64,000 bases of DNA. Source: Mariniphaga anaerophila. GTDB lineage: Bacteria > Bacteroidota > Bacteroidia > Bacteroidales > Prolixibacteraceae. A program made the translations under genes and the position numbers. Below the pieces are notes generated by a model. It had not been told where the DNA came from. It was given only the letters and a program-made list of their open reading frames with translations, and did no database searches. How positions within the stretch are numbered: position 1 is the first letter of the stretch; every line of letters begins with the position of its first letter. The stretch lies in the NCBI RefSeq assembly GCF_900129025.1, contig NZ_FQUM01000008.1, positions 1 through 64,000 of the forward strand, in the 5' to 3' direction. Shown here in pieces: positions 1 through 42,838 of this stretch.

Positions 1-144
1 GTTTCTTATGCCCCCACCATTGATAAGCTGAAAACAAAAGAAGAGCGCCGGAAGGCATATGCAGAAGCGTTAACCGCAAAGCCTGACATTGTGGAATCTG
101 ACCGGCCGGTGGAAGTGTGGCCGCTTGTTGCCTCTGAAAAATAG
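1..144 (+). CDS. C-terminal end of an unidentified protein (5' truncated by window edge)
   Basis: Frame 1 is open from the first base to a TAG at 142-144 and gives the last 47 residues of a protein. The tail is charged (Lys/Glu-rich around the KTKEERRKAY stretch) and ends in a hydrophobic stretch followed by SEK. There are no cysteines or recognisable motifs, so no family is assigned. It ends about 70 bp before the SusC gene on the same strand, so it could be the last gene of a preceding unit or the first member of the SusCD operon. The sequence upstream of the window is needed to identify it. Confidence 0.6.
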   Translation, partial: VSYAPTIDKLKTKEERRKAYAEALTAKPDIVESDRPVEVWPLVASEK

Positions 145-215
145 GATAGAAACTAATACCTCTCGGCTAAAATCGAGTGAAATTCAAACAATTAATAACT
201 AATAATTTAATATCT

Positions 216-3200
216 ATGAAAAGAGATGGCGTAGTCCATAGATACCTTTTATGGGTAATTCTAAACTCAATAAAGTCAGGATTGGCGGTAAGTATGTTAG
301 CAACACTGCTTTTTACCTGTATCACATCCGGCGCTGTAGCCCAAACCACAGGCGAAGCTGCAACAGCACAACAAAAAAATTGGTCTGTTTCAGGAAAAGT
401 GACTGATTCTGCCGGGTTACCTTTACCCGGAGTTACTATTGTTCAGAAAGGTACAACAAATGGGATAGTTACTGATTTTGACGGAAATTATTCTTTCTCA
501 GGTATTTATAGTGACGCTGTTTTGGTATTCTCTTTTGTGGGGATGCAGACTGAGGAAATCAGTGTTAATGGCAGAAAAGAGCTTAATCTAAAAATGGAGG
601 CTCAAAATGTTGCCATCGAAGAAGTTGTTGCCATTGGTTATGGAACAATGCGAAAAAAGGATTTAACAGGAGCGGTTGCTACGGTTAATGGCGATTTGGT
701 TGCAAAAAGGCAGGCAACTCAACTTTCGCAGGCATTACAGGGCTCGATGCCCGGTGTTACCATCACAAGGAGCAATTCCGAACCAGGAGCAAGTGCAACT
801 ATTCGTGTACGCGGGATTACAACTATTAGCGATAGCAATCCGCTGATTATTGTTGACGGAGTCCCGGTTAGTAATATCAACGATATAAACCCCAACGATA
901 TTCAGGATATTTCGGTTTTAAAAGATGCGGCTTCCGCTTCAATTTACGGTGCAAGGGCAGCGTCGGGAGTTGTGCTTATCACTACCCGGAGAGCGAAAAA
1001 AGGCCAGATAAATATGGAGTACAGCGCCAGCTTCGGAATAGAAAAGCCCACGGAATTTCCTGAGGTGGTAGATGCAGTTCGTTACATGGAAATGTCGAAC
1101 GAACAAACCTGGAATGATGCCGGTAATAAAGAAGGCGGCGAGTACGGAGTTTATTCAAAAGACGAAATAGAAAACTGGATGGAATGGAATAAAACCAATC
1201 CTAATGAATACCCGGTTACCGACTGGGTTGGCCTTTTGTTAAACGATTACGCACCGAGGCAAACGCATAATCTTTCGTTGTCTCACGGCGGCGAAAAAGT
1301 GAAAACAAACGCTTCTATTAACTACGAGTACAGCGAAGCATTGTACGATTATAATAGTTACGAAAGAATATCTACCCGGGTGAATAACACCATTAATATT
1401 AACGACTATTTATCCGGAACAATTGATTTTTCTTTTAACTCCTCCTTGTCTGAAAATCCGGTAGGTAACCCGGTTTACGACGCTTTGCGTTATGCTCCGA
1501 TTTATGCTGCAGTTTGGTCTGATGGTAGAGTTGCAGAAGGGAAAAGTAGCTCAAATGAATACGCTGCATTAAATTATGGCGGGTATAATAATTTGAGAAA
1601 CAATAAATTGTTCGGTAAAATTGCCCTCGATTTTAAACCCGTAAAAAACCTTACCATTACCGGAGTAGTGGCGCCTACGTTACATTTTGCAAAAAACAAA
1701 AAGTTTGTAAAACAAATCCCTTATTACGATGCCGACGACCCGACAACGTTTTTGGGATATATTGCCGGTCACGAAAATACTTCATTGAAAGAGGAACGAA
1801 ACGACAAGAAAACCATGACCAAACAGTTGTTGGTAAAATACTTGAATTCGTTTAACGATGCACACAATGTAAACTTAATGGCCGGTTACGAAGATTTTGA
1901 GCTTTTCAACGAATCGCTTTCTGCTTTTCGGGATAAGTATTTATTGTCAAATTTCCCCTATCTCGATTTGGGGCCGTTAGATTATCAGGAAAACTCGGGT
2001 TCTGCATTGGAATCTGCATACAGATCTTATTTTGGACGGGTAATTTACGACTACAAAAGCAAGTATTTTGCCCAGGCAAATATTCGCTACGATGGCTCTT
2101 CCCGGTTTCATCCCGATTACCGCTGGGCCGCCTTCCCTTCTTTTTCTGCCGGATGGGCAATTTCCGAAGAAGATTTCATGAAAGATGTTTCTGCTTTGTC
2201 GTTTCTGAAGCTTCGCGCATCATGGGGAACACTGGGGAACGAAAGAATTGGAAATTATCCGTACCAGGCTTCAATCGGATTTTCTAATGCGTTGTTTTAT
2301 CAGAACGGCTCAATTGTTTCGTCAACAACTGCTGCTCAATATCAATACGCTATTCCCGATATTACCTGGGAAACTACAGAAACCTGGGATGTGGGGATTG
2401 ATGCCAATTTTTTCGATAACAGATTATTGTTCTCCGGAGATTATTACGTGAAGAAAACCAAAGATATGTTGTTGGAGCTGGAAGTTCCGGATTTCATGGG
2501 ATATGAAAATCCTGACCAGAACACCGGGACAATGGACACCAAAGGATGGGAAATTCAGCTGTCGTGGAGAGATAAGGTTGGCGAACTTAACTATGCTGCT
2601 TCTTTTAATGTGTCCGACTATATTTCAAAAATGGGCGACCTTGGCGGAATTGTTTTTGACGGAAGCATAATTAAAAGAGAAGGAAGTGAGTACAACGAAT
2701 GGTACGGATACCTGTCTGACGGGTTATTTCAGACCCAGAAAGAAATTGACGATTCGCCGCTTTTGTACTCTTCTGTAAAACCGGGCGATGTAAAATATAT
2801 TGACATAAGTGGCCCCGACGGCGTTCCTGACGGACAAATTACCCCAGATTATGACAGGGTGTTGCTTGGCGGTTCGTTGCCCCGTTTTGTTTACGGAGGA
2901 AATATTAGTGCTGATTATAAAGGGTTTGACCTTTCTGTTGTTGTTCAGGGAGTTGGAAAACAGAACAGCAGGGTTGTGCCTCAAATGGTTAAACCGTTCT
3001 ACAGCGGGTGGACAAATGCCCCGAAAATAATTGACGGAAATTACTGGAGTCTTTACAATACCGAAGAGCAAAATCTCAACGCAAAATACCCGCGTTTATC
3101 ATACGTAGGCGCCGAAAATAATAACTACGAAATGTCAGACTTCTGGTTAATAAACGGCGCTTATTTCAGGCTAAAAAACATAACTCTGGGTTATACATTG

Positions 3201-3365
3201 CCAAAACAGGTGGTTCAAAGAGTTCGTTTAAACGGTGTTCGCCTTTTTGCATCGGCTTCAGATTTGTTCTCGTTTAACCATTATCCAAAAGGTTGGGACC
3301 CTGAGGTTTCCTACAACTCTTACATCTCAAAATCATTTAATGTTGGACTTTCTGTTAAATTTTAA
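216..3365 (+). CDS. SusC/RagA-family TonB-linked outer-membrane transporter
   Basis: A TonB-dependent outer-membrane channel of the SusC family, which imports ligands captured by its SusD partner using energy from TonB-ExbBD. From the ATG at 216 it is 1049 residues, normal for the family. The N-terminus has a long signal region ending near AVAQ (about residue 43). A carboxypeptidase-regulatory-like beta domain follows (about 55-140, VSGKVTDSAG...DGNYSF), then the plug domain beginning at the AIGYGTMRKKDLTGAV signature, then the barrel, ending in the aromatic C-terminal residue typical of outer-membrane barrels (SVKF). An in-frame GTG at 177 would add 13 residues; the ATG is preferred because it follows an AT-rich leader and starts a normal signal peptide. 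It lies 11 bp upstream of its SusD gene. The neighbours suggest a phosphorylated or phosphodiester ligand rather than a plain glycan; this is inference. Confidence 0.95.
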   Translation: MKRDGVVHRYLLWVILNSIKSGLAVSMLATLLFTCITSGAVAQTTGEAATAQQKNWSVSGKVTDSAGLPLPGVTIVQKGTTNGIVTDFDGNYSFSGIYSDAVLVFSFVGMQTEEISVNGRKELNLKMEAQNVAIEEVVAIGYGTMRKKDLTGAVATVNGDLVAKRQATQLSQALQGSMPGVTITRSNSEPGASATIRVRGITTISDSNPLIIVDGVPVSNINDINPNDIQDISVLKDAASASIYGARAASGVVLITTRRAKKGQINMEYSASFGIEKPTEFPEVVDAVRYMEMSNEQTWNDAGNKEGGEYGVYSKDEIENWMEWNKTNPNEYPVTDWVGLLLNDYAPRQTHNLSLSHGGEKVKTNASINYEYSEALYDYNSYERISTRVNNTININDYLSGTIDFSFNSSLSENPVGNPVYDALRYAPIYAAVWSDGRVAEGKSSSNEYAALNYGGYNNLRNNKLFGKIALDFKPVKNLTITGVVAPTLHFAKNKKFVKQIPYYDADDPTTFLGYIAGHENTSLKEERNDKKTMTKQLLVKYLNSFNDAHNVNLMAGYEDFELFNESLSAFRDKYLLSNFPYLDLGPLDYQENSGSALESAYRSYFGRVIYDYKSKYFAQANIRYDGSSRFHPDYRWAAFPSFSAGWAISEEDFMKDVSALSFLKLRASWGTLGNERIGNYPYQASIGFSNALFYQNGSIVSSTTAAQYQYAIPDITWETTETWDVGIDANFFDNRLLFSGDYYVKKTKDMLLELEVPDFMGYENPDQNTGTMDTKGWEIQLSWRDKVGELNYAASFNVSDYISKMGDLGGIVFDGSIIKREGSEYNEWYGYLSDGLFQTQKEIDDSPLLYSSVKPGDVKYIDISGPDGVPDGQITPDYDRVLLGGSLPRFVYGGNISADYKGFDLSVVVQGVGKQNSRVVPQMVKPFYSGWTNAPKIIDGNYWSLYNTEEQNLNAKYPRLSYVGAENNNYEMSDFWLINGAYFRLKNITLGYTLPKQVVQRVRLNGVRLFASASDLFSFNHYPKGWDPEVSYNSYISKSFNVGLSVKF

Positions 3366-3376
3366 AGCTGAAAACA

Positions 3377-5074
3377 ATGACTAATAAAATTATAATAGGC
3401 TTTCTGGGTATATTTTTACTCATGTCGTGCGCAGAGCTGGATTTAAACCCGCTATCTGAAGGGTCCAGCGAAAACTGGTATTCCGATGAAGTTGAAATAA
3501 ACATGGCGCTGAACGATTTGTATCGCACCTATTTATGGGATATGGAAACTAATTTCGAGATGGATCGCTTTACCGATGACTGGAGTCAGCGTCAGGCGAC
3601 AAATCCAGTTCGAAACGGGACTGTTACCAGCGAATGGAACACCATTGAAAATCTTTGGTTAAGTACCTACAAAGGAATTGCGCGTGCCAATAAAATTCTG
3701 AATAATTTGTATAAGGTTGAAGGCGAAATTCCTCAGGAAATGTTTGACCAATTTACCGGTGAAGCAATGTTTGTAAGAGCTGCCCTTTATTCAAGATTGG
3801 TGTTTTATTTCGGAAACGTGCCCTTTTTTACAAATGATATAACAATTGAGGAAGCGTTTGCAATGGGGCGTACCGATAAAGACGTCATTCTGGAAACAGT
3901 GTATCAGGATTTTGATGAAGCCATCAAAAAGTTACCGGTTTCTTATAAAGGAACGGAATTGAGCCGGGCAACCAGGGGCGCTGCTTTGGCCTTTAAAGCA
4001 AGAACGGCCTTGTGCTTTTCCGACTGGGAAATTGTCAGAGATGCTGCCAAAGCCTGCATCGATCTTGGAGTTTATTCTCTGCATCCCGATTTTGCAGATT
4101 ACTTTTTATCGAAAACGAAAAATTCAGAAGAAACCATTTTTGCGCTGCCTCGCCTGGCAGAATTGGGATCTACCTGGAAAACGAAAAACTTTATTCCACG
4201 AACTGCCGGAGGTTCGGCTGTTGCACAACCTTCATGGGATTTGTTCAGCTCATTTCTATGTACCGACGGGCTGCCAATTGACGAGTCGCCCCTCTACGAT
4301 CCAAGAGAGCCGTTCAAAAACAGAGACCCGCGTTGTGCAATGACCATTGTTGAGTTCGGAACAGAGTTCCTGGGATATGTTTACGATCCTCATCCGGACA
4401 GTAAAAAGGTACTGAACGTAGCAACAGGCGGAATGGTTAAAAACAAAGATTCGCGCGGTGTTGACAGGTACGCTTCTTATAACGGATTGAGCTTGAAAAA
4501 AGGAGTGGATGAAGACTGGGCCGGGGACACTGAATCAGACTTCGACATTATTATTATGAGGTATGCCGATGTGTTGCTGATGTATGCCGAAGCAAAAATT
4601 GAGCTGAATGAAATCGACGATTTGGCAATTAATGCCATTAATCAGGTTCGTGCCCGCGCTTATGGTGTTAATGTATCTGATGTACAAAGTTATCCAGCGG
4701 TAGCAAAAGAATCACAGGCCAAAATGCGTACTGTTTTGCGAATGGAAAGACGTGTTGAACTCGCCTGGGAAAACCGCAGGTATTTCGATTTAATTCGTTG
4801 GAAAATTGCAGGGAAAGCATTAGGTACGCCTATTTATGGTTTGCTTGATGTTGCAGAGTTAAAAGATAAAGTTGTAGATGAAGGTTTGTGGTTTTTTCCG
4901 GGAGTACCTGAAATTGACGAAAATGGCATTCCTGATTTTGAACCCATGTACGAAAACGGCCTCATAAAGCTTTTGGTCGAACGAAACTTTGATGAGTCCA
5001 GGCAATATTTGTGGCCGATTCCTTCAAAAGAAATTATGATAAACGATAATTTGAAACAAAACCCCGGATATTAA
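3377..5074 (+). CDS. SusD/RagB-family surface nutrient-binding lipoprotein
   Basis: The extracellular lid of the SusCD complex, which binds the substrate at the cell surface and passes it to SusC. The protein has 565 residues. The signal peptide ends in a lipobox (LLMSC, lipidated Cys18). The SusD N-terminal pattern follows (LDLNPLSEGS...NMALNDLYR), then TPR-like helices and the conserved C-terminal RagB segment (MRTVLRMERRVELAWENRRYFDLIRW; ending LWPIPSKEIMINDNLKQNPGY-like, shown in shortened form). It lies 11 bp after SusC and is followed by a strong intercistronic hairpin at 5106-5142. The ligand cannot be read from sequence; the phosphoesterases and organic-anion transporter downstream point to a phosphate-bearing compound. 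Confidence 0.94.
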   Translation: MTNKIIIGFLGIFLLMSCAELDLNPLSEGSSENWYSDEVEINMALNDLYRTYLWDMETNFEMDRFTDDWSQRQATNPVRNGTVTSEWNTIENLWLSTYKGIARANKILNNLYKVEGEIPQEMFDQFTGEAMFVRAALYSRLVFYFGNVPFFTNDITIEEAFAMGRTDKDVILETVYQDFDEAIKKLPVSYKGTELSRATRGAALAFKARTALCFSDWEIVRDAAKACIDLGVYSLHPDFADYFLSKTKNSEETIFALPRLAELGSTWKTKNFIPRTAGGSAVAQPSWDLFSSFLCTDGLPIDESPLYDPREPFKNRDPRCAMTIVEFGTEFLGYVYDPHPDSKKVLNVATGGMVKNKDSRGVDRYASYNGLSLKKGVDEDWAGDTESDFDIIIMRYADVLLMYAEAKIELNEIDDLAINAINQVRARAYGVNVSDVQSYPAVAKESQAKMRTVLRMERRVELAWENRRYFDLIRWKIAGKALGTPIYGLLDVAELKDKVVDEGLWFFPGVPEIDENGIPDFEPMYENGLIKLLVERNFDESRQYLWPIPSKEIMINDNLKQNPGY

Positions 5075-5167: not shown

Positions 5168-6673
5168 ATGGCAAACAAGTATTTTTCTCTCAGAGGCTGG
5201 TTGTTCCTTCTTTCCGTGTTTTTTGCATTCGGCATTTTTGCTGCAGAAAACAGTGCGGAAAAACAGGTGTCCGGAATTGTTTCCGGGCAGGTTGCAGAGA
5301 ATGGTGCCGGCATTGAGGGAGTAGTGGTGAGTGACGGTTTTGAAACAACGCTTACCGATGGTTCAGGAAATTACAGGCTGGAAGTAAATTCGGAAGCCGA
5401 ATTCATTTTTATTTCGGTGCCTTCTGGCTATAAATTTCCCAACGAAAACGGGGTTGCTAAGTTTTACGAAATCTTACCTGCCGGTATGAGTAGCCGGAAG
5501 ATTAATTTTGAACTGCAACGGAATGCGCTGGATGATACCCGCCATGCCTTTATAGTCTGGGCCGATCCGCAGGTGAAAACCACGGGAGATGTGCAACGGA
5601 TGATGACCGAATCTGTACCAGATATCGCTGCTCACATTGGCGAGCTGGGAAATATTCCTGTGCATGGAATTACATGTGGCGACATTGTTTTCGAAAAGTT
5701 CAACCTGTATGCCGATTACAAAAAGGCAGTCAGGCAAATGAATGTTCCTTTTTTTCAGGTGGTAGGTAATCACGATATCGATTATTCGGCTCTCACAGCA
5801 AAAGCATCAACACATCAGTTTAAAGAAAATTTTGGTCCCACGTATTATTCGTTTAATCGCGGTAAAATACATTATGTGGTGCTGAACGATGTGTTTTTTA
5901 AAGGCGACGACGAAGCATATAAAAACAAAAGGAGAAAATACATGGGACATATTGCCGGCGAACAGCTCCGGTGGCTGAAAAAAGACCTTCAGTATGTTCC
6001 GCAGGGAAGCACGGTTGTTGTTTCTCTCCATATTCCGGTTTTTGAAATTACCTTTCTGAAAAGCGCGGTTCGGAACGAATTAAAAACAGCAACGGTTGGT
6101 AACCGGAATGAGCTTTACGATATAATAAAACCTTATCGGGTGCATATTATGTCGGGGCACACGCATTACAACGAAACAGCAGAGAATGACAACTGGATGG
6201 AACATAACCATGCTTCGGCCTGTAATGCCTGGTGGATCGGAAATATTTGCACCGACGGGACACCGGGTGGATACGCAGTTTATCAGGTTTCGGGAGATGA
6301 CATTTCGTGGTACTATAAACCTACTGGAATTGAGCGCTCTTTTCAGCTCAGATTGTATCCGAAAGGGGAGAGCCCTGAACGCCCTGAGAATATTGTTGCA
6401 AATGTATGGAACTGGGACGACGACTGGCGGGTTATTTGGTTTGAAGACGGTGTGAGGAAAGGAGAGATGGAACGCTATCTGGGTTACGATCCGCAGGCTT
6501 ACAAAAATATGTTTGGCAGCGAAATGCCCGAAGAAAAAGGTTCGCTGGAACCCACCCGCACAGAGCATGTTTTCTCTGCAAAACCATCGGAAAATGCTAA
6601 AGAAATAAGAGTAGAGGTAACCGACCGTTTTGGAACTGTGTATTCCGAATTGCTTCGTTTAAAAGGTGAATAA
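5168..6673 (+). CDS. Exported calcineurin-like phosphoesterase with N- and C-terminal accessory domains
   Basis: A metallophosphoesterase of 501 residues, probably periplasmic, with a signal peptide of about 26 residues. An N-terminal carboxypeptidase-regulatory-like beta domain (about 35-115, GVVVSDG...GNYRLEV) matches the family usually called MetallophosN. The catalytic domain shows metal-site motifs in order: D133-P-Q135, GD171-172, GNHD200-203, SLHIP286-290 and GHTH330-333. A C-terminal beta domain follows (about 385-501). The first motif has Gln where the classical DxH motif has His. It is paralogous to the lipoprotein at 34201-36189 (both share the GTPGGYA segment after the catalytic core), which links the two SusCD loci. 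The likely reaction is phosphomono- or diester hydrolysis on the SusCD ligand; the substrate is unknown. Confidence 0.88.
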   Translation: MANKYFSLRGWLFLLSVFFAFGIFAAENSAEKQVSGIVSGQVAENGAGIEGVVVSDGFETTLTDGSGNYRLEVNSEAEFIFISVPSGYKFPNENGVAKFYEILPAGMSSRKINFELQRNALDDTRHAFIVWADPQVKTTGDVQRMMTESVPDIAAHIGELGNIPVHGITCGDIVFEKFNLYADYKKAVRQMNVPFFQVVGNHDIDYSALTAKASTHQFKENFGPTYYSFNRGKIHYVVLNDVFFKGDDEAYKNKRRKYMGHIAGEQLRWLKKDLQYVPQGSTVVVSLHIPVFEITFLKSAVRNELKTATVGNRNELYDIIKPYRVHIMSGHTHYNETAENDNWMEHNHASACNAWWIGNICTDGTPGGYAVYQVSGDDISWYYKPTGIERSFQLRLYPKGESPERPENIVANVWNWDDDWRVIWFEDGVRKGEMERYLGYDPQAYKNMFGSEMPEEKGSLEPTRTEHVFSAKPSENAKEIRVEVTDRFGTVYSELLRLKGE

Positions 6674-6916: not shown

Positions 6917-8170
6917 ATGTCATCATTCATAAGCCCAGAGAAGAGGCGTTGGTTTATAGTAGCAATAATATTTGTAATTACTGTTTTTAGTTATGTGGAT
7001 CGTCAGGTTGTATCGATTTTAAAACCGATATTGAAAGAAGAGTTTTCGCTTGACGATGCCGGGTATGCGTTAATCATAAATGTGTTTACCATATGTTACG
7101 CAGTAATGTATCCCATTTCCGGCTGGCTGGTAGATAAGTTCGGTGCGCGTAAAATTATGTTTTGGGGTGTGCTTACCTGGTCATTCAGCTCAATTGGTAG
7201 CGGGTTGGCCCGAACGTTGTTTCCGTTTGCAATTTTTAGAAGCCTTTTGGGACTGGCAGAGCCAACAACATATCCGGCGCAAATAAAAGTGGTGACTAAA
7301 TGGTTTTCAGGAAAATTGCGTGCGACGGCAAATTCTATTTCAGTGGCCGGTGGTACAATCGGTTCTGTAATTGCTCCGCCTTTTATAGCCTGGCTGGTAC
7401 TTACGTTTACCTGGCATTCAGCATTTATCATTCCCGGAATTGTGGGCATTGTTGTCGCTTTAGTCTGGTTTTTCCTTTATAAAGAACCGCCAAAAGGATA
7501 TGTTAAAGATACGGTTTCGGGCGACAGCGTTAGCGAAAATTCGCCGGCGTTCAGCTGGGGAAAACTATGGACCCGGAAAAGTTTGTGGGGAATTGTGCTG
7601 ATTCGTTTTATTACCGACCCGGTGTGGTATTTCATCCTGTTTTGGTTGCCCGGTTTTCTGATGGAAGAATCAGGATTGAGCCTTTCGCAACTTGGAATGG
7701 TTGGCTGGATTCCTTTTCTGGCTGCCAGCCTGGGAGGAATCGCTTCTTCTGCCTGGTCTGACTGGATGGTGCGTCGCGGAAAACCCGCTCTTCGTTCGCG
7801 TAAGGTTATGCTGAGCTACGTTGCTTTTCTGGCTCCGGTTATTCTGTTACCCGATAGCTGGGGCGTGGCAGTAACCATCATCAAATTTAGTGTTTTGGCA
7901 GCCGTTGCCCTGAGCTGGATTTACACCGAAAGCGTACTTATTGCCGAAACGTTTCCCATAAATAATGTTGCCAGTGTATTAGGAATTGCCGGTGGTTTTG
8001 GAGCTGCCGGTGCCGTAATCTTTAATTACTTAATTGGGCATTTTATGACCTCGGTCGGGACCGGCTGGATTTTTATGGTAATGGCGGTTCTTCACCCGTT
8101 AACCTTATTCATTTTGTGGAAAATGATTCGTCCGGAAATTCCGAAAGAAACCGCAATTGCAAAACAATAA
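6917..8170 (+). CDS. MFS transporter of the organic-anion (ACS/ExuT-like) type
   Basis: A 417-residue inner-membrane secondary transporter with the twelve hydrophobic segments of the major facilitator superfamily. The N-terminus carries FVITVFSYVDRQ, a pattern typical of the anion:cation symporter group (hexuronate, glucarate and phthalate transporters). The loop after helix 2 has the MFS signature DKFGARK. The family imports small organic anions with protons or Na+. Its position between two phosphoesterases suggests it carries the dephosphorylated or anionic product into the cytoplasm for the oxidoreductase encoded downstream. It is not GlpT-like in detail; the GlpT of this window is at 31076. 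The next gene starts 13 bp after its stop. Confidence 0.88.
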   Translation: MSSFISPEKRRWFIVAIIFVITVFSYVDRQVVSILKPILKEEFSLDDAGYALIINVFTICYAVMYPISGWLVDKFGARKIMFWGVLTWSFSSIGSGLARTLFPFAIFRSLLGLAEPTTYPAQIKVVTKWFSGKLRATANSISVAGGTIGSVIAPPFIAWLVLTFTWHSAFIIPGIVGIVVALVWFFLYKEPPKGYVKDTVSGDSVSENSPAFSWGKLWTRKSLWGIVLIRFITDPVWYFILFWLPGFLMEESGLSLSQLGMVGWIPFLAASLGGIASSAWSDWMVRRGKPALRSRKVMLSYVAFLAPVILLPDSWGVAVTIIKFSVLAAVALSWIYTESVLIAETFPINNVASVLGIAGGFGAAGAVIFNYLIGHFMTSVGTGWIFMVMAVLHPLTLFILWKMIRPEIPKETAIAKQ

Positions 8171-8183
8171 ATCCAAAGGAAAT

Positions 8184-32410: not shown

Positions 32411-32430
32411 ACCAAAAAATCAAAATTAAA

Positions 32431-33372: not shown

Positions 33373-33420
33373 AGAGGTATTATTTTTTTAATTTTATTTT
33401 AACGGATTATTTGTTTGACT

Positions 33421-34179: not shown

Positions 34180-34200
34180 GAATAGATAGATTTTAAACGA

Positions 34201-36189
34201 ATGAGAAAAATGAAAAATATACTGGAATACAATAAAATTCTATTGTATTTGGTCTTGGCTGTAATTTTATCGCTTTACGGTTGCAATGGAGGGAATGACC
34301 ACGAAGAACCTGTAGATGATTTCAATATACAGATTAGTCTTCCTTCTGCAATTGACGTAACCCAGGGGGGCGAATATGTTTTTACGGCGCAAGGTGGAGG
34401 CGGACTAAAAATGTCCGATTCATTCCTTCTGGAGTCGGGAGGCATTTCTTACGTTTGCCCTGTCACCGCTGTTTCTTCCACAGGATTCACGGTGCAGATT
34501 TCCAATGAATGTAAAACCGGCGAATACAATGTTTCCGTTAAACGGGATTTACGGAAGAAGCCAGTTGGGAAAATATACATCAATATTGTTGACTTTTTGT
34601 TTACGCCTGACGAAGGCACTACAATATATGGCATTGTTAAATCGGAAGAAGGCGGCGTGAAAGGCGTCGTGGTTTCAGACGGTGTGGAAGTGACCACCAC
34701 CGATGAAAAAGGCATTTATCAACTCAAGTCTGCGAAGAAAAGAAATTATGTCTTTATTTCTGTTCCGAGCAATTACGAAGCGCCCTCTTCGGGTGTGCTT
34801 CCTCAGTTTTTTCAAACATTAAAAGCCAATGCCAACACGGTAGAACGGGTAGACTTTACGCTTAACAAGGTTGCCGGACAGGATGCCTACAAAGTATTTA
34901 TGCTTGGCGACATGCACCTGGCTGCCCGAACAAACGACCTTAGCCAGTTTTCGGCTTTTACTACTGACCTGAACAACTACAGGAACGCCAACGCTTCAAA
35001 AAAAATGTACGCAATTACCCTGGGAGACATGACCTGGGATTTGTACTGGTATTCAAATAATTTTGGCTTATCCGAATACCTGAACACCATAAACAGTCAG
35101 GTGAAAAATTTGCAGATATTCCACACCATCGGCAACCACGATTACGATTACCAAGCGACTTCCGATTTTACTGCGGAGCTCCAATATATGAACTACATTG
35201 CCCCTACCTATTACTCTTTTAATATAGGTGAAATTCATTATGTTGTGATGGATGATATCGATTGCAGTGAGTACGACGGAACAACTTCCCGCAAATACAA
35301 AAAACTGACTTCTGCAGAACAGTTGAGCTGGCTTGAAAAAGATCTCTCTTATATCGACAAGTCAACGCCTTTGGTTGTTGTAATGCACGCACAAGTATAT
35401 TATCCTTTGCAAACTGGCGAATTTAGGATAGACCACGACATAGCCAGTACCGAGCAACTATTCAACATTTTGAGCGGTTATAAAGTGCATTTTGTGACGG
35501 GGCATACACACATGACTTTCAACGTTACGCCGGAATCAGCGGTTACAGGCGGAAATGATTTCTACGAACATAACACAGGAGCTGTCTGCGCCTCGTGGTG
35601 GTGGTCCGGAAATTTAACGCCGGGTATTCACATCAGCCCCGACGGTACGCCGGGCGGATATGCGATTTGGGATGTTTCGGGGAAAGATTTGCAATATGTT
35701 TACAAGGCCACCGGATGGTCGGAAGACTACCAATTCCGCAGTTACGACCTGAACAATGTACATTTTTCGCTGGCAGATGTTCCGCTGATGCCATCCTCTG
35801 TTCCCGCTTCGGTTAAGAATAAGTATATGCAGTATGTTGATGCCTACCCGGCAAACAATAACAACGAGTTGCTGATAAACATCTGGAACTGGAATCCGAA
35901 CTGGACGCTGACCGTAACTGACGAATACGGAAAGAGACTGACTCCTGAAAAAGTTTGGGCATACGACCCGCTGCATATTGCAGCCCTTTCTGTGAAGCGC
36001 TTCAACTCGGCTAGTCTGAAGTCTACTCCCAGTTTTATTACCGAAAAGTTTACTCACTTTTTTAAGGTGAAAGCCGATAATCCCGATACAGATATGATCA
36101 TTACCGTTAAAGATGAGTTTGGGCACATCTGGACGGAAAACATGCAACGTCCCAAAGTCTTCTCTACAGATTCTTATAAAACAAAATAA
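34201..36189 (+). CDS. Calcineurin-like phosphoesterase lipoprotein with Ig-like and MetallophosN/C domains
   Basis: 662 residues, lipidated at Cys28 (LSLYGC). Domains in order: an Ig-like beta domain (about 38-135), a MetallophosN-type domain (about 145-225, GIVKSEEGGVKGVVVSDG), the catalytic domain and a C-terminal beta domain (about 500-650). Metal motifs are complete: FMLGDMHLA, TLGDMTWD, IGNHDYD, VVMHAQVY and VTGHTHM. Here the first motif is DxH, whereas the paralogue at 5168 has DxQ. The protein probably sits on the cell surface or in the periplasm and cleaves a phosphoester of the SusCD ligand before or after uptake. It directly precedes SusC (27 bp gap). Confidence 0.9.
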   Translation: MRKMKNILEYNKILLYLVLAVILSLYGCNGGNDHEEPVDDFNIQISLPSAIDVTQGGEYVFTAQGGGGLKMSDSFLLESGGISYVCPVTAVSSTGFTVQISNECKTGEYNVSVKRDLRKKPVGKIYINIVDFLFTPDEGTTIYGIVKSEEGGVKGVVVSDGVEVTTTDEKGIYQLKSAKKRNYVFISVPSNYEAPSSGVLPQFFQTLKANANTVERVDFTLNKVAGQDAYKVFMLGDMHLAARTNDLSQFSAFTTDLNNYRNANASKKMYAITLGDMTWDLYWYSNNFGLSEYLNTINSQVKNLQIFHTIGNHDYDYQATSDFTAELQYMNYIAPTYYSFNIGEIHYVVMDDIDCSEYDGTTSRKYKKLTSAEQLSWLEKDLSYIDKSTPLVVVMHAQVYYPLQTGEFRIDHDIASTEQLFNILSGYKVHFVTGHTHMTFNVTPESAVTGGNDFYEHNTGAVCASWWWSGNLTPGIHISPDGTPGGYAIWDVSGKDLQYVYKATGWSEDYQFRSYDLNNVHFSLADVPLMPSSVPASVKNKYMQYVDAYPANNNNELLINIWNWNPNWTLTVTDEYGKRLTPEKVWAYDPLHIAALSVKRFNSASLKSTPSFITEKFTHFFKVKADNPDTDMIITVKDEFGHIWTENMQRPKVFSTDSYKTK

Positions 36190-36216
36190 AAAATTAATTT
36201 AAACACTTATGAATCA

Positions 36217-39200
36217 ATGAAAGCAATCAAATTCTCTATTTTGTTGCTACTGTTATTTGCGTTGGAGGGCTTTTCGGTTCTTTCCGCTCAGAACAGAACG
36301 GTATCGGGAAAAGTTTTTGATACCCAGCAAGAACCTCTTATCGGAGTAACCATTCAGCTCGAAGGTACCACTCAAGGCACTGTTACTGCCACTGATGGAT
36401 CTTTTAGCATTACGGTTCCATCAGAGGCTGTTGTTTTGAATATCTCTTATGTGGGTTACATGGCTCAGAAAGTCAGTGTGGCTCCGGATCAAAATGACAT
36501 CGAGATTTACATGGAAGAAGATGTCATTTTAATGAATGAAATGGTAGTTGTCGGTTATGGAACACAGAAAAAGGTTAACCTGACCGGCGCAGTTACAACG
36601 GTAGATAGCAAAGGGCTTGAAAACCGTGTGTCCCATTCGGTGACCAATATGCTGCAAGGCTCAGTTCCGGGTCTTAACATCACTACTTCTTCGGGCGTAC
36701 CCGGCAGTTCGCCCAACATCAATATTCGTGGTGTAACTTCCATTAACGGCGCTTCGCCGTTGGTGCTGATCGACGGTGCTGTTGGCGACCTGAACCGTGT
36801 TAACGCAAACGACGTAGAATCAATTTCGGTCATTAAAGATGCGTCGGCTGCTGCTGTTTACGGTGCGCGCGCGGCTTTTGGGGTTATCCTGGTTACAACA
36901 AAATCGGGGGCGGCGCAAGAGAATAAAGCGACAGTTCGTTACAGCGGCCGCTATGGATGGGAAAGCCCAACAACTTCTACCGAGTATGAAACTACCGGAT
37001 ATTGGTCGGTATATACCGTCAACAAGTTCTGGAAAGCTGACTCTGGAACACTTTACGTCAATTATACTGACCGCGATATGCAGCAGTTATTAGCCCGTGT
37101 AAATGATAAGACCGAGAATCCCGACCGTCCCTGGGTAGTCGAAGAAGTGAGAAACGGACGGAACCAGTGGGTTTATTACGGTAACTACGACTGGTGGCAC
37201 ATGCAATATCGGGATAGCCATCCTGTGCAACAACAGAATATTTCCATCAGTGGAGGAACGGAGGACGTTAAGTATCTTGTATCGGGTGCTTATGATCGTC
37301 GGGAGGGTATTCTGAAAGTTCATCCTGATATTTTTAATAGATACAATTTGCGTTCGAAGATTGATTTCCGGATTAACAAGTGGATGACGATGACAAATAA
37401 TACCTCGTTCTTCGCTTCTGAATATAACTTTCAGGGAGATGGCAGCGTTGAGAATACGATTGCCTATGGCGCAAGGCATGCACTTGCAAATTTCCCGATG
37501 AAAAACCCTGATGGTTCATGGCTTTACAGTACCCCATATCTGAACTATAAAGTAGGTAACGGTCGTCACATTATGCTTGGCGAAGGGTCGCACCGTAACG
37601 TAAACAGGGCATCTGATTTTTCTAACACTACCCGTCTTGTACTCACTCCGATAAAACAGTTGAGCATTACGGCAGACTTTACTTATCGTCAGTACCAGAC
37701 ACGTAATACAAGTCGTTCCAATAACCTTTTTTTCCGGGAGTATCCGGATGCGCCGCTTGACTCGTATGCAACCGGCGCCGGCGCCAACCGGCTCGACGAA
37801 TCGGTTAATACGCGTAATTACTACTCAACAAATATGTTTGCCAATTATAGCCAAACGTTTGGCGAGCACAATTTGTCGGGTGTTGTCGGGGTCAATTACG
37901 AAACCCTGAAACTGAAAAATCTGTCAGCATACGGCGAATATCTGTCTTCTTCAACACTGGATGATTTGAATCTCGTTGGGCAAAATTCTGAGGGGCAAAC
38001 AATTACAGGTGTAGGAGGCGGGCAAAATGCATACGCTTTGGCCGGTGTTTTCGGTCGTATCAACTACGATTATAAGAACCGCTATCTGTTTGAGGTCAGC
38101 GGCCGTTACGACGGAACTTCGCGTTTTGACGCCGACAGCCGGTGGGGATGGTTCCCTTCTGCTTCGGCAGGCTGGCGTATTTCTGAAGAGTCTTTCTTTG
38201 AATCGGCTCGGAACATGATCGACAACCTGAAGCTGAGGGCCTCTTTTGGAAGCCTGGGTAATCAAAATGTTTCTTCTTATTATACCTATTTGCGGTTGGT
38301 GTCTATCAATGACTTCGCAGGATATTCATTCAACGAAGGCAGCACTATGGGCAAATATTCGTCGCTGGGCGCCCCTGTGGCTTCCGACCTGACCTGGGAA
38401 ACGGCAGCGCAGTGGGATGTCGGTTTCGACCTTACCATGGTTAATAACCGGCTGAACTTTACGGCCGACGTCTATATTCGCGATACCAAAAACATGTTGA
38501 CCGACGGTATTGAATTGCCTTCAGTATACGGAGCTTCTGTTCCGAAAATGAATACGGCCGATTTGCGCACAAAAGGTTACGAGTTGTCTGCCTCTTGGAG
38601 AGACCAGCTAACCGTGATCAGCAAACCACTGGAGTACAGTATTGGGGTAAACGTCAGCAACTACATAAGTACCATTACTAAGTACGATAATGCCGATAAA
38701 ACTTTTGCCAAAAGCTATTACGAAGGTATGCGCCTTGGAGAGATTTGGGGGTTTGTTACCGACGGACTGTATCAGAGCACCGAAGAAGCGCAGGCATATG
38801 CCCAAGAGGTTGATTTAAGTTTTATCAACAGCCGGATCACCGGAGGATGGCAGGCAGGTGACCTTAAGTTTTTAGACCTTGACGGGGATAAAATACTGGG
38901 TATCGGCAGCAATAGTGTTAACGATCCGGGCGACCGGAAAATTCTGGGGAACTCGCTTCCGAGTTTTTCTTATGGTATTAATACAAGCATTCGCTGGTAT
39001 GGTTTCGATGTATCTGCATTCTTCCAGGGAACCGGAAACCATTACTGGTATCCTACCGGACAGTCAATGCCATTCTGGGGACCTTATTCGTATCCTTATC
39101 TCACTTATTTGCAGAAAGATTTTCTGAAAGATGTATGGGCAGAAGATAACCGGGATGCGTACTTCACGCGACCAATGGCTTATTCAGCTACTTCCGGCCC

Positions 39201-39480
39201 TTTGAGTAAAGTCAACGACCGTTATCTCCAGAATCTGCGCTATCTGCGTTTCAAAAACCTGACCATCGGTTACACTATTCCGTCTGGTTTGACGAATAAA
39301 GCGGGCATTGATGTGGTTCGTTTCTATTTTTCGGGTGAAAATCTTTGCTATTGGTCGCCCCTTAAGAAACGTACGAAATACATTGATCCCGAAGGAGCAC
39401 TTGATAGAAGCGGTGCTTACAACAACAGTTTTTATCCCTGGCAAAAGACCTTTATGTTTGGTGTAGATATTACTTTTTAA
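36217..39480 (+). CDS. SusC/RagA-family TonB-linked outer-membrane transporter
   Basis: 1087 residues. The signal peptide ends near SVLSAQ. A carboxypeptidase-regulatory-like domain (about 27-110, VSGKVFDTQQEPLIGVTI) is followed by the plug at VVGYGTQKKVNLTGAV, then the 22-strand barrel with the terminal Phe of a typical outer-membrane protein (MFGVDITF). It forms the channel of the second SusCD complex in the window and shares the ordinary SusC layout with the 216-3365 protein, though the two differ widely in the barrel. Preceded by a phosphoesterase lipoprotein and followed after 12 bp by SusD. Co-transcription with glpD and glpT suggests glycerophospho-type ligands. Confidence 0.95.
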   Translation: MKAIKFSILLLLLFALEGFSVLSAQNRTVSGKVFDTQQEPLIGVTIQLEGTTQGTVTATDGSFSITVPSEAVVLNISYVGYMAQKVSVAPDQNDIEIYMEEDVILMNEMVVVGYGTQKKVNLTGAVTTVDSKGLENRVSHSVTNMLQGSVPGLNITTSSGVPGSSPNINIRGVTSINGASPLVLIDGAVGDLNRVNANDVESISVIKDASAAAVYGARAAFGVILVTTKSGAAQENKATVRYSGRYGWESPTTSTEYETTGYWSVYTVNKFWKADSGTLYVNYTDRDMQQLLARVNDKTENPDRPWVVEEVRNGRNQWVYYGNYDWWHMQYRDSHPVQQQNISISGGTEDVKYLVSGAYDRREGILKVHPDIFNRYNLRSKIDFRINKWMTMTNNTSFFASEYNFQGDGSVENTIAYGARHALANFPMKNPDGSWLYSTPYLNYKVGNGRHIMLGEGSHRNVNRASDFSNTTRLVLTPIKQLSITADFTYRQYQTRNTSRSNNLFFREYPDAPLDSYATGAGANRLDESVNTRNYYSTNMFANYSQTFGEHNLSGVVGVNYETLKLKNLSAYGEYLSSSTLDDLNLVGQNSEGQTITGVGGGQNAYALAGVFGRINYDYKNRYLFEVSGRYDGTSRFDADSRWGWFPSASAGWRISEESFFESARNMIDNLKLRASFGSLGNQNVSSYYTYLRLVSINDFAGYSFNEGSTMGKYSSLGAPVASDLTWETAAQWDVGFDLTMVNNRLNFTADVYIRDTKNMLTDGIELPSVYGASVPKMNTADLRTKGYELSASWRDQLTVISKPLEYSIGVNVSNYISTITKYDNADKTFAKSYYEGMRLGEIWGFVTDGLYQSTEEAQAYAQEVDLSFINSRITGGWQAGDLKFLDLDGDKILGIGSNSVNDPGDRKILGNSLPSFSYGINTSIRWYGFDVSAFFQGTGNHYWYPTGQSMPFWGPYSYPYLTYLQKDFLKDVWAEDNRDAYFTRPMAYSATSGPLSKVNDRYLQNLRYLRFKNLTIGYTIPSGLTNKAGIDVVRFYFSGENLCYWSPLKKRTKYIDPEGALDRSGAYNNSFYPWQKTFMFGVDITF

Positions 39481-39492
39481 CACGATAAAGCT

Positions 39493-41301
39493 ATGATTAA
39501 GATGAAACGTTTTACTATAATAGCCATAACATTGCTTATGGGGCTTTCGGCTTGTAATGATCTTCTTGATCTGAAGCCTTTGAGCCAGATTTCACAGGCG
39601 GATTATTTCCAGACGGAAACAGATCTTCAGCTTTTCAGCAACCCTTTCTACAATAACTTGCTGGACAAATCACCCTACGATTTGCAGAGCGACCTTTATG
39701 TTTGCCAAAATCTGTCGGACATAATGTTGGGAGGCACCAAGCGCACCGTTCCCGCTTCGGGTGGCGGATGGTCGTGGACAGACTTGCGCAGGATGAATAC
39801 ATTGATAGCCTATGCCGATCAGTGCAAGGACGAGAATGCTGTTATTAAATACACTGCATTAACCCGATTCTTCCGTGCTTTTTTCTATTTCGAAAAGATA
39901 AAACGCTTCGGCGATGTGCCGTGGTACGAAGTTGAACTGGGTTCGGCAGATGAAGCACTCTACAATGCCCGCGATTCGCGCGAATTGGTTATGACCAAAA
40001 TGATTGAGGACATTGATTACGCCATTGCTAATCTTCCTAGCAAGGCAAATGAAACAAGTAGTCCGTACCGTGTTAACAAATATGCCGCTATGGCGCTGAA
40101 AGCTCAGTTTTGCCTGTACGAAGGTACATACCGGAAATATCACGCCCTCAATCTGGAAGGACACGACTATAATTATTATCTGGAACAAGCGGTAACAGCG
40201 GCGCAGAACTTAATGAATGATGGCGCATACAGCCTGTACAGTACTAATCATCCGGAAAGCGATTACCTGACGCTTTTTGCACAAGAAAATGCTGATCCGA
40301 ACGAGTATATTCTCGCTATTAAATTCGACTACGGGCTTAATATATACCATAATGCTACAGCCCATACGCTGGTACCAACACAGGGACGACCTGGACTAAC
40401 CCGCAAGATGGTGAATACTTATCTGAAAAAAGACGGTACGGCATTCACCAATCAGTCGGGCTGGCAGGAGATGTCATTCCTCGAAGAAATGACAGACCGC
40501 GATCCTCGTCTGGCTCAAAGTATCCGTACACCGGGCTATACACGCATTGGGCAAACAACAGTGCTGGCACCCGACCTTTCGATAAGTGTTACCGGTTATC
40601 AGCCCATTAAGTTTGTTCAGGATCCAAAAGCATCGGGTGGCAACGTAGATCGTAACGACCGTTCTACTTGCGACTTGCCGGTTTACCGGTATGCCGAAGT
40701 GCTTCTCAATTATGCTGAAGCAAAGGCAGAACTTGGTACCTTGATGCAGTCCGACCTCGACGAATCTGTCAATCTGATCCGTCAGCGTGCAGGAATGCCT
40801 AACCTTGATATGAACGTTGCCAACGCTAATCCCGACAGATATCTTTCTGACGCAGAAACAGGATATCCGAATGTTACGGGTGCAAACAAAGGTGTCATCC
40901 TCGAAATTCGTCGCGAACGGGCCATTGAACTGAATCAGGAAGGATTTCGCTTCGACGACCTGACACGCTGGAAAGCCGGTTATTGTATCGACCAGTCTAC
41001 TTACGGCATGTATTTCCCCGGTCCGGGAGCATACGATTTGAGTGGCAACGGACAGGCTGATGTAACACTTTATGCCAATGGAACACCTAAACCTGACGTT
41101 ACTTCCGGAGTAGCGTATGAGATAGGAAGTGAAATTATTCTTTCAGGAGGCGATAAAGGTTATATTTACTACCACAAAAGTATTGAACGCACTCCTTTCA
41201 ACGAGGGGCGCGATTATCTGTACCCGATTCCGATTAACGAGCGTTCGCTCAACCACAATCTTACGCAAAACCCGGGTTGGAACGATGGACTCTCTTTTTA
41301 A
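39493..41301 (+). CDS. SusD/RagB-family surface nutrient-binding lipoprotein
   Basis: 602 residues. A lipobox (LLMGLSAC, Cys21) precedes the family start CNDLLDLKPLSQISQADYF. TPR-like helices follow (KYTALTRFFRAFFYFEKIKRF) and the C-terminal RagB part includes VILEIRRERAIELNQEGFRFDDLTRW and PIPINERSLNHNLTQNPGW (quoted in part). It covers the extracellular side of the SusC pore and gives ligand specificity. An in-frame ATG at 39502 is a possible alternative start. The gaps on either side are 12 and 34 bp, consistent with a single transcript. Confidence 0.94.
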   Translation: MIKMKRFTIIAITLLMGLSACNDLLDLKPLSQISQADYFQTETDLQLFSNPFYNNLLDKSPYDLQSDLYVCQNLSDIMLGGTKRTVPASGGGWSWTDLRRMNTLIAYADQCKDENAVIKYTALTRFFRAFFYFEKIKRFGDVPWYEVELGSADEALYNARDSRELVMTKMIEDIDYAIANLPSKANETSSPYRVNKYAAMALKAQFCLYEGTYRKYHALNLEGHDYNYYLEQAVTAAQNLMNDGAYSLYSTNHPESDYLTLFAQENADPNEYILAIKFDYGLNIYHNATAHTLVPTQGRPGLTRKMVNTYLKKDGTAFTNQSGWQEMSFLEEMTDRDPRLAQSIRTPGYTRIGQTTVLAPDLSISVTGYQPIKFVQDPKASGGNVDRNDRSTCDLPVYRYAEVLLNYAEAKAELGTLMQSDLDESVNLIRQRAGMPNLDMNVANANPDRYLSDAETGYPNVTGANKGVILEIRRERAIELNQEGFRFDDLTRWKAGYCIDQSTYGMYFPGPGAYDLSGNGQADVTLYANGTPKPDVTSGVAYEIGSEIILSGGDKGYIYYHKSIERTPFNEGRDYLYPIPINERSLNHNLTQNPGWNDGLSF

Positions 41302-41335
41302 CTGAAAATGGTAATTGATAAAAAATTGCAAAATC

Positions 41336-42838
41336 ATGAAACGTACAAATTATATCATCTTCTCTATTCTACTGGTGTTTGCAAGCCTCTTGCAGGGCTG
41401 CAACGATGAAGAGAGCGGACTGTCGAAGGCTGTTTTGGCGAGCGCCGCTACGCTAAATTTTGAAGCGACCGGAACATCGGAGAAAATCATCACTGTTTAT
41501 GCTGATGCCGACTGGATTACGGAAGTTCCCGAATGGGTAACAGTCACGCCCACTTCCGGTACAGGAACCATGGATGTTACAATTAATGTAACGGAAAATA
41601 TTCGCGAAGGCTCTGTTGACAATCCCCGCAAGGCTGCGCTTGTATTCAAGGGCGGCACGCTGGCTAGCCGCGCCGAAGTGGTAATTTTTCAGGAAGGAGA
41701 CAAGTATCGCGACTGTGAAGAGTACACGCTTGCCGAATTGGCCGAATTGGAAAACGAAACGGTTGTTATTGTTCCGCAGGTTACTGTAACGGCAGCCACA
41801 ACAAAAGGCTTCATTGTAAGCGATGGAACTGTAAATATTTTTATGCAAAGTTCCTCTGTTGTAGGCGTTGGCGACAACGTTTCGGTAAAAGGAACAAAGC
41901 TCTACGACACTCATTCGCTTTCATACGTAGAATGCGACGAAGCGACTGTTAATGCTACGGGTGGCGAGGTAAACTATCCTGCCGCAGTAGATATTACTGA
42001 TAAGCTGGATACTTACACCTCCACCTCGAGAACTTTTATTACGGTCAACGGTATACTAAATGGTAATAACGTAACAGTGGAAGGCGCTGATTATTCTGTT
42101 GCAATAACAGATGCTCCGGAAAATTTTGACCTTGCTCCGTTGAATGGGCATAAAGTAAAAGCTACTGGTTATTTTGCAGGTGTGGCCGCTCCCGTTGTTA
42201 AGCTAAACGCTACTGCTGTTGAAGATCTCGGCGTAGTGGAAATTATCTATTTTGCTGAGGATTTTGAGTGGTTGAACCCTTGGGCTGAAGCAAGCTCAGC
42301 CGGGCAAACAGTTGAGACGGACAATCTTAGCGCGACTGCACCTCAGATATCGTCTTCGTCTACAGTTGTTGACGGCATTACCGCCAATGATGCGCTTCTC
42401 CAAAAAGGTTATCAATTCCTCCGTGTTACTCCTACAAGTACCGATGCGGGAGAGTGTATTTATCTTCAGAACAATTACCTTAAGTTCGGAAAAACGGGTT
42501 ACCAGGCCGGTGCCGTTTTACCAAAAATTGAAGATATTCCTTCTGGTGTAACAACCGTTCTGTCGTTCGACTGGTGCCCGATGAGGCAGGGATCGGGCAA
42601 AATAGATCCCGTGAACCTGGTCGTCATTGTTACTAACGGAAGCGATGAAGTAACATTCGAGATACCCGAATCGGGTTTCGAGAGTGGTCATGTGCTAGAG
42701 TGGGTCAGAGCCGAAGTAGAGCTCACCGGTGTTACGATTAGTAACGATACTAAGATTACGATCCATGCGACTCAATGGCAGGTATCTACAGCCAATCGCT
42801 GGTTCCTCGATAATATTAAACTTGTAAAGGCTAATTAA
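41336..42838 (+). CDS. BACON-domain surface lipoprotein, probable accessory binding protein of the SusCD complex
   Basis: 500 residues, lipidated at Cys22 (SLLQGC). A BACON-type beta sandwich (about 28-115, LNFEATGTSEKIITVYADADW and VTPTSGTGTMDVTINV, quoted in part) is followed by two OB-fold-like repeats (about 120-310; KGFIVSDGTVNIFMQ and FITVNGILNGNNVTV). The C-terminal region (about 315-500) is a jelly-roll-like domain ending in WFLDNIKLV. There are no catalytic motifs. Its place directly after SusD is where surface glycan-binding proteins normally lie, so it is probably a ligand-binding accessory. Last gene of the operon; the terminator follows within 20 bp. A start at 41315 would add seven non-signal residues. 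Confidence 0.82.
   Translation: MKRTNYIIFSILLVFASLLQGCNDEESGLSKAVLASAATLNFEATGTSEKIITVYADADWITEVPEWVTVTPTSGTGTMDVTINVTENIREGSVDNPRKAALVFKGGTLASRAEVVIFQEGDKYRDCEEYTLAELAELENETVVIVPQVTVTAATTKGFIVSDGTVNIFMQSSSVVGVGDNVSVKGTKLYDTHSLSYVECDEATVNATGGEVNYPAAVDITDKLDTYTSTSRTFITVNGILNGNNVTVEGADYSVAITDAPENFDLAPLNGHKVKATGYFAGVAAPVVKLNATAVEDLGVVEIIYFAEDFEWLNPWAEASSAGQTVETDNLSATAPQISSSSTVVDGITANDALLQKGYQFLRVTPTSTDAGECIYLQNNYLKFGKTGYQAGAVLPKIEDIPSGVTTVLSFDWCPMRQGSGKIDPVNLVVIVTNGSDEVTFEIPESGFESGHVLEWVRAEVELTGVTISNDTKITIHATQWQVSTANRWFLDNIKLVKAN

Follow-up and report, generated by a model that had tools for sequence, protein, structure and literature searches.

Two SusCD loci of Mariniphaga anaerophila beside phosphoesterase genes: a likely glycerol phosphodiester system and a probable second phosphodiester locus

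SusCD systems are by default annotated as glycan importers, and the question raised here is what such a system takes up when its neighbors are phosphoesterase genes. Two SusCD loci of this kind are encoded in the first 64 kb (the window) of a 172-kb contig (C30, NZ_FQUM01000008.1) in the 5.05-Mb genome of Mariniphaga anaerophila: locus 1 at the contig start and locus 2 at 29427-42838. In each, a SusC and SusD pair (TIGR04056, PF07980) adjoins phosphodiesterase and phosphatase genes, and no glycoside hydrolase or lyase family was found among the eight genes called per locus, the sequence 5' of base 1 lying outside the data. Gene calls in both loci were checked with Pfam and NCBIfam profiles; calls of export and of lipoproteins come from a simple lipobox rule or from visual inspection. 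Taking both loci together, locus 2 likely encodes Sus-like uptake and breakdown of glycerol phosphodiesters, and locus 1 is probably another phosphodiester locus, on a glycan-type module.

Locus 2 is a single run of eight same-strand genes with intergenic gaps of 12-77 bp and with SusCD2 placed towards its end (Table 1). A GDPD, a glycerol-3-phosphate importer and a glycerol-3-phosphate dehydrogenase occur together in it (PF03009, TIGR00712, and DAO with DAO_C). A sequence-only reading of this DNA had named these three proteins and an HAD phosphatase in locus 2, and a MetallophosN/MetallophosC phosphoesterase in both loci (MPN1 at 5168-6673 and MPN2 at 34201-36189). The profiles agree with both assignments (PF16371, PF00149 and PF16370 for MPN1 and MPN2), with the GlpD-like protein under the NF008899 cutoff. 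Absent from that reading were the GDPD tail at 1-144, the DeoR-family gene and the alkaline phosphatase listed in Table 1. A role of the HAD protein as a phosphocholine phosphatase was unsupported, 4ovy being the sole structure in the PDB that it matched at E 0.1 or below. In enterobacteria, the glpTQ/glpD regulon comprises a periplasmic glycerophosphodiesterase, GlpT, GlpD and the DeoR-family GlpR. Locus 2 likewise has a glycerophosphodiesterase, GlpT and a GlpD-like protein, with a DeoR-family GlpR-like gene nearby; unlike what is predicted for locus 2, the enterobacterial regulon is not known to include TonB-linked surface capture or a surface phosphodiesterase.

The anatomy of locus 2 suggests the Sus logic of surface cut, SusCD import, periplasmic release and inner-membrane transport. 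On the outside of the cell, MPN2 and the BACON/CBM-like lipoprotein would capture the substrate and cut it; SusCD2 would import the resulting pieces, and a periplasmic GDPD would free sn-glycerol-3-phosphate, which GlpT would bring inside and GlpD would oxidize to dihydroxyacetone phosphate. The HAD protein, and perhaps the alkaline phosphatase too, may dephosphorylate by-products, and the GlpR-like DeoR protein may sense glycerol-3-phosphate. By this route both carbon and phosphate would be gained. The predicted layout of surface lipoproteins, SusCD, periplasmic enzyme and inner-membrane transporter is that of starch utilization system-type polysaccharide utilization loci (PULs), from which the window loci differ in having no glycoside hydrolase or lyase called.

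MPN2 carries the motifs DxH, GD, GNH, H and GHxH of calcineurin-like, two-metal phosphoesterases, and D237, H239, D276, N312, H313, H396, H435, H437 and Cys28 were invariant in all 48 sequences of its set. In its AlphaFold2 model (mean pLDDT 91), the best folds for the core were 1xzw, a purple acid phosphatase with the lowest E-value, and Rv0805 (2hyp, TMt 0.72); many further matches were antibody chains on small beta domains. MPN2 resembles Class III phosphodiesterases and purple acid phosphatases (Rv0805) in its calcineurin-like core and differs from Rv0805-type enzymes in its MetallophosN/MetallophosC flanks and lipoprotein anchor. We take GpdQ and CpdA to group with the Class III phosphodiesterases as well.

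The occurrence of MetallophosN/C enzymes next to SusCD across Bacteroidota was borne out by a search. A contig scan with a five-sequence alignment, which possibly excluded the genome itself, matched at least 593 stretches, at least 539 of them relatives, and SusC was present in 63 of the best 80 MPN2-type loci, which were kept. The nearest named relatives of MPN2 among the matches listed came from two Maribellus strains (Prolixibacteraceae; 89-90% identity). Gene labels were taken from clustering and from Pfam matches of cluster representatives; several of the 80 loci were cut by contig ends, and one (L036) gave no MPN open reading frame (ORF) by a simple ORF call. GlpT was found in 19 loci (18 by cluster alone), GlpD-like proteins in 16, GDPD in 16, GlpK in 10, GlpF in 10, DeoR in six and HAD in four. 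In L026 and L061, where GlpB and GlpC exceed curated cutoffs, the gene in the GlpA position (28% to the window GlpD) is counted as GlpD-like. Of the 80 loci, 27 encode at least one of GlpT, GlpD, GDPD, GlpK and GlpF and 18 encode two or more; SusC is present in 25 of the 27.

As a control, 40 SusD-centered stretches of the own genome outside the window were surveyed; they held no GlpD, GDPD or HAD, one GlpT-like gene (in L139, a SusCD locus described below), two EEP, three FAD_oxidored and one MPN gene. In a like-for-like count by BLAST to the window GlpD, GlpT and GDPD at 1e-8, applied to loci and control alike, at least one of the three was found in 25/80 MPN2 loci versus 1/40 control stretches (Fisher p 1.0e-4), and two or more in 16/80 versus 0/40 (p 8.7e-4, or 0.0062 once the truncated GDPD in L139 is added), p values that serve as a guide only since the loci are mutually related and the control is from one genome. 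Mapped on a tree, Glp context (25 of 78 labeled tips, window included) required 12 changes, compared to a mean of 21.7 and a minimum of 16 in 300 shufflings. Glp context is clade-linked, yet it was repeatedly gained or lost, contig cuts inflating the number of changes. By SusD type, Glp genes were present in 9/37 loci with SusD_RagB and in 15/24 with SusD-like_2, the latter type being named from one representative.

Linkage of glp genes with SusCD was seen in Maribellus, Sphingobacterium, Arenibacter, Gelidibacter, Flagellimonas and metagenome-assembled genomes of Bacteroidales. That repetition, and the tight single run of eight genes with SusCD towards its end, argue against a chance neighborhood in which a SusCD operon happens to adjoin a housekeeping glp cluster; the 67 SusD matches in the ~5-Mb genome, 65 of them outside the window, speak for it, but we regard this explanation as very improbable. 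MetallophosN has five matches across the 5.05-Mb genome, two of them inside the window, and PF03009 two (locus 2 and contig C40), the profile being blind to two cut GDPD tails (C30, C29). The distribution of MPN2 is patchy, with a match at E 1e-100 in one of 39 other relatives searched and in none of three same-genus genomes.

Because GlpD or GlpB/GlpC, GlpK, GlpF and DeoR are encoded in homologous loci, we infer that locus 2 serves a carbon-side, GlpR-regulated catabolism of glycerophosphodiesters with surface capture. The DeoR-family gene following locus 2 has a close counterpart beside glpD in Maribellus luteus (L012). Upstream of glpD, a triple direct repeat (TTTCR-N5) precedes a TAnnTTTG sequence that we presume to be a -7 element. 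The repeat matches once in the window with no mismatches (0.40 chance matches expected at one mismatch) and is found exactly at L012:4856, before the glpD of M. luteus. The 2.9 Mb of fetched loci hold two exact copies, the second presumably lying in L010, the fetched counterpart of the window itself. It was not found upstream of glpD in L011, L066, L069 and L079 with two substitutions allowed, and a k-mer search of 11 upstream regions for a shared DeoR operator returned nothing widely common. Of the 18 sources listed, only the window and L012 carry it without mismatch, so the repeat remains a candidate operator.

SusCD for organophosphorus is already known from the published PusCD systems. PusCD complexes respond to depletion of inorganic phosphate (Pi) and sit with phosphodiesterases (Lidbury et al. 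2020, PMC8115612); in Flavobacterium six PusCD types co-localize with phosphodiesterases and phosphomonoesterases, and the substrates suggested for PUSI are nucleic acids and the head-groups of lipids (PMC8115612). Like PUSI-PUSIV of Flavobacterium johnsoniae, the window loci have SusCD beside phosphodiesterases and phosphatases rather than carbohydrate-active enzymes, with predicted import of organophosphorus; the families given for the PUSI enzymes are pf00149 and pf16670 (PMC8115612), not the MetallophosN/C pair of the window loci. It could be proposed that locus 2, and locus 1 with it, is a low-phosphate-induced PusCD whose purpose is phosphate and not carbon, a proposal strengthened by the Flavobacterium precedent and by the alkaline phosphatase near locus 2. 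However, the carbon-side genes GlpD, GlpB/GlpC, GlpK and GlpF and the DeoR gene beside homologues argue otherwise, and one strict PHO-box pattern was not found within the 64-kb window, although Bacteroidota boxes may differ. Moreover, PusCD is defined by low-Pi induction, without Glp catabolic genes described in the available text, in which 'glycerol' as a word start occurs 0 times and 'glycerophosph' once in the main text (PMC8115612), while locus 2 has glp genes and a GlpR-like regulator. We find a role in Pi scavenging improbable as the explanation of these loci, though it overlaps with carbon-side catabolism as one locus could serve both, and the likelihoods given to the two need not sum to one. 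A SusCD with a GlpR/GlpD/GlpT/GDPD cassette and an H-type enzyme was not found among the records listed from the open-licence literature (titles and abstract openings, most subscription papers being outside it), nor was a paper on MetallophosN found in the open-licence literature.

Table 1. Features of the two SusCD loci and their surroundings, with coordinates in the window.
Feature	Position	Strand	Evidence
Locus 1			
GDPD C-terminal 47 codons, gene cut by contig start	1..144	+	PDB 3mz2 E 1.4e-5 over 44 aa
SusC1, TonB-linked importer	177..3365 (alternative ATG 216)	+	TIGR04056 926 bits; Plug, CarbopepD_reg_2
SusD1 lipoprotein	3377..5074	+	PF07980 3e-51; simple lipobox rule
MPN1, exported Q-type MetallophosN/C phosphoesterase, DxQ for DxH, without lipobox	5168..6673	+	PF16371 (4e-24), PF00149, PF16370
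MFS1 transporter, organic-anion type at best	6917..8170	+	PF07690 3e-53; TIGR00893 210 bits, under cutoff 395
MPE1, second metallophosphoesterase, exported by eye, likely start 8184	8157..9134	+	PF00149 9e-20; acid-sphingomyelinase-like PDE 3b E 4e-4
FAD-dependent oxidoreductase, no signal peptide seen	9263..10642	+	PF12831 9e-124
EEP1, endonuclease/exonuclease/phosphatase fold, lipoprotein by simple rule	10739..11611	+	PF03372 1e-20
EEP2, EEP-fold protein, exported by eye	11665..12576	+	PF03372 3e-17
Locus 2			
Triple direct repeat TTTCR-N5, candidate DeoR/GlpR operator	29342..29366	+	5' of -7-like element; spotted after the fact
TAnnTTTG -7-like element before glpD	29397..29404	+	pattern match
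GlpD-like glycerol-3-phosphate dehydrogenase	29427..30998	+	DAO + DAO_C; NF008899 295 bits, under cutoff 360
GlpT glycerol-3-phosphate transporter	31076..32410	+	TIGR00712 724 bits, cutoff 633 exceeded
HAD-IB-type phosphatase, exported by eye	32428..33372	+	PF12710 2e-12; 4ovy E 4e-5
GDPD, exported by eye	33415..34179	+	PF03009 6e-25; 3no3 E 6e-68
MPN2, lipoprotein H-type MetallophosN/C phosphoesterase, additional N-terminal beta domain	34201..36189	+	PF16371 (3e-24), PF00149, PF16370
SusC2	36217..39480	+	TIGR04056 884 bits
SusD2 lipoprotein	39493..41301	+	PF07980 1e-49; simple lipobox rule
BACON-like/OB-like/CBM-like jelly-roll lipoprotein, likely start 41336	41315..42838	+	structure model; Cys29
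Terminator-like hairpin 3' of locus 2	42863..42884	+	26 such found vs 20.3 expected by shuffling
Neighbors of locus 2			
DeoR-family (GlpR-like) regulator	46083..46844	-	DeoRC + HTH_DeoR; 74% identity to DeoR beside glpD, L012 (Maribellus luteus)
Alkaline phosphatase, possible accessory	48490..49671	+	PF00245 3.5e-79; NF007810 175 bits, under cutoff 540

The two loci had been described as paralogous, a view that the sequences contradict. SusC1 and SusC2 share 31% identity and SusD1 and SusD2 25%, and each SusC has closer relatives among the 40 own SusD stretches (L126 at 35% for SusC1; L142 at 39% and L139 at 37% for SusC2); close paralogy of the SusCD pairs was accordingly rejected. MPN1 and MPN2 are 29% identical and, in a tree of 125 homologues (126 collected, one of <380 aa dropped), fall in separate clades, one change apart, with support 1.0. 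The H-type clade (DxH), which includes MPN2, holds 79 of the 125 sequences, with a strict lipobox in 53/79 and a Cys in the anchor column in 73/79; the Q-type clade (DxQ, other ligands kept) holds 44, among them MPN1, with 2/44 and 5/44, respectively, and the remaining two sequences are gapped at the site. The split between DxH and DxQ thus largely tracks presence or absence of the lipoprotein Cys. H-type and Q-type enzymes co-occur at 18 fetched loci. As a general marker of phosphodiester loci, MetallophosN/C was rejected for the Q-type clade, which is found also beside glycoside hydrolase-like genes.

The first feature of locus 1 is the tail of a GDPD gene that the contig start truncates. 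The tail is 51-54% identical to the C-termini of three full-length proteins, one of which was tested and matches 3mz2 at 2.2e-93. Between the end of the tail and SusC1 lie 32 bp if the called start is used, or 71 bp for the ATG at 216. Since contigs C29 and C30 open with nearly identical 110 bp (99%), the assembly break probably falls within a duplicated GDPD gene; the missing front was not found, nor was a third copy of the 110-bp start in the assembly. The GDPD tail is all that locus 1 has of a glycerophosphodiester route, without GlpT or GlpD. The second metallophosphoesterase, two EEP genes, MFS transporter and FAD_oxidored gene named by the sequence-only reading are present, with the transporter of organic-anion type at best (TIGR00893 under its cutoff). 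Its statement that every neighboring enzyme handles phosphoesters does not extend to the FAD_oxidored protein, and phosphoester transport by MFS1 is unsupported. A PAS histidine kinase gene adjoins the locus at 12649-13776 on the minus strand, with no response regulator among the neighbors scanned.

Homologues of SusD1 (46-57%) were found at 11 places outside the genome (six in the class search and eight in the order search, three in common). These loci (L104, L111-L120) encode FAD_oxidored in six cases, MFS1 in two and an MPN1-type enzyme in one (L104), and GDPD, EEP and MPE1 had no match in any of the 11, L117 spanning just 3.7 kb. Among 39 of 51 candidate flank proteins were FAD_oxidored (6), sulfatase (4), Melibiase (3), GH97 (2) and GH88 (2), with GH2 in L114. 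The company of MPN1-type enzymes was mixed, including GDPD but also glycoside hydrolase-like genes: 87 of 121 candidate flank proteins gave GDSL lipase (10), GDPD (6), GHL10 (5), GH16 (3), GH97 (2) and GH31 (2). One other Q-type gene of the own genome lies amid GH16, GHL10, DUF4434, GlcNAc 2-epimerase and FAD_oxidored genes (L006, 1039-12899). Given these flank families, the relatives of the SusCD1 and FAD-oxidoreductase part are of glycan type. The earlier proposal of dedicated phosphodiester loci holds with strong comparative support for locus 2 and in part for locus 1, where the GDPD tail, MPN1, MPE1 and both EEP genes favor phosphodiesters and the SusD1 relatives with FAD_oxidored, glycoside hydrolases and sulfatases do not. 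Locus 1, with its GDPD, MPN1, MPE1, EEP1 and EEP2, is therefore probably also directed at phosphodiesters, grafted on a SusCD/FAD-oxidoreductase module of glycan-type ancestry; a glycan that carries phosphate or is joined by phosphodiester bonds may be what it takes up.

Carbohydrate may also be part of the ligand at locus 2. The lipoprotein at 41315-42838 had no Pfam match; its Cys29 is invariant in 22/22 relatives, yet was missed by the strict lipobox rule. The structure model (pLDDT 86, pTM 0.61) matches part of the Bacteroides ovatus xyloglucanase 3zmr over 92-96 columns, a region we take to be its BACON domain, and also CBM4, CBM16 and CBM22 jelly rolls; we read the middle part as one that may be OB-like. 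As the whole-chain TM was low and unrelated beta proteins scored alike, the BACON and CBM matches are domain-level leads. Such a fold would fit a reading of both loci as glycan PULs acting on a phosphorylated or phosphoglycerol-decorated glycan, with the phosphoesterases trimming substituents. The glycan genes around SusCD1 relatives and the Q-type gene of L006 point the same way, as do the weak PDB match of EEP1 to the mannosyl-6-phosphatase 4c1r (E 5e-6) and the GH28-like genes and sulfatases of some MPN2 loci. However, neither locus has a glycoside hydrolase among its called genes, locus 2 encodes a complete glycerol-3-phosphate route, and the 106 of 211 candidate MPN2-locus flank proteins that were scanned gave, among the 25 of 216 families listed, pectate-lyase-like (4), sulfatase (4) and GH28 (3) as the only glycan families, beside Phosphodiest (4) and GlpC-type iron-sulfur families (3). 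A purely glycan-directed role for both loci is thus unlikely.

Several observations nevertheless weigh against glycerol phosphodiester catabolism at locus 2 and a phosphodiester role at locus 1. The GlpD-like protein falls short of its NCBIfam cutoff (NF008899, 295 bits versus 360), 53 of the 80 MPN2 loci are without such a Glp or GDPD gene in the stretch examined (some being contig-cut), and the control represents one genome where the 80 loci represent many and, being related, are not independent. The candidate operator is exact in only two of six glpD upstream regions. A sulfatase cluster is present in 5/80 MPN2 loci, including L011 of Maribellus, and a GH28/pectate-lyase-like cluster in 6/80 (L064, L074, L075, L077, L080 and L090), although consistent flanking by glycoside hydrolases was not seen among the homologues of locus 2. 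The CBM-like part of the last locus 2 protein suggests that the ligand may contain carbohydrate, and SusCD1 relatives sit beside glycan genes.

Candidate substrates of these loci are a lipid head-group, a teichoic-type polymer and a phospho-glycan. Under one tentative and rather doubtful scenario, they are teichoic-acid-type utilization loci with which Bacteroidota graze on polymers of Gram-positive walls, those of glycerol-phosphate in the case of locus 2, through a surface endo-phosphodiesterase, SusCD import and a periplasmic exo-GDPD. If a recurrent SusCD class is tied to glycerol-3-phosphate catabolism, part of the SusCD repertoire of Bacteroidota would recycle phospholipid head-groups or cell-wall phosphate polymers, and the carbon and phosphorus cycles would be linked through that class. 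Cultured Maribellus, Sphingobacterium and Arenibacter offer testable gene sets, and the H-type MetallophosN/C lipoprotein clade offers a marker.

Related clusters were also encountered elsewhere. L139 is a third SusCD locus, at the start of contig C29 of the same genome; its GDPD tail is 86% identical to window 1-144, and its SusC and SusD are related to those of locus 2 at 37-38%. It also encodes an RbtT-type transporter, a glycerol-1-phosphate-dehydrogenase-like protein, an HAD-IIA protein, a ribulokinase-type kinase and a GlpT-like gene, and, under the teichoic-acid scenario, might serve a related polyol-phosphate. In other genomes of the order, clusters at L168 (1870-9085), L169 (6402-12000) and L170 (6244-11698) combine DeoR-like, GDPD-type, glycerol-1-phosphate-dehydrogenase-like, HAD-like and GlpT-like or RbtT-like genes, several named by eye via L139, with no SusCD in the stretches examined. 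At L142 (8642-14122), the closest relative of SusC2 examined adjoins a BLAST match to EEP1, and a second EEP-like protein and a possible PHP protein were recognized there by eye.

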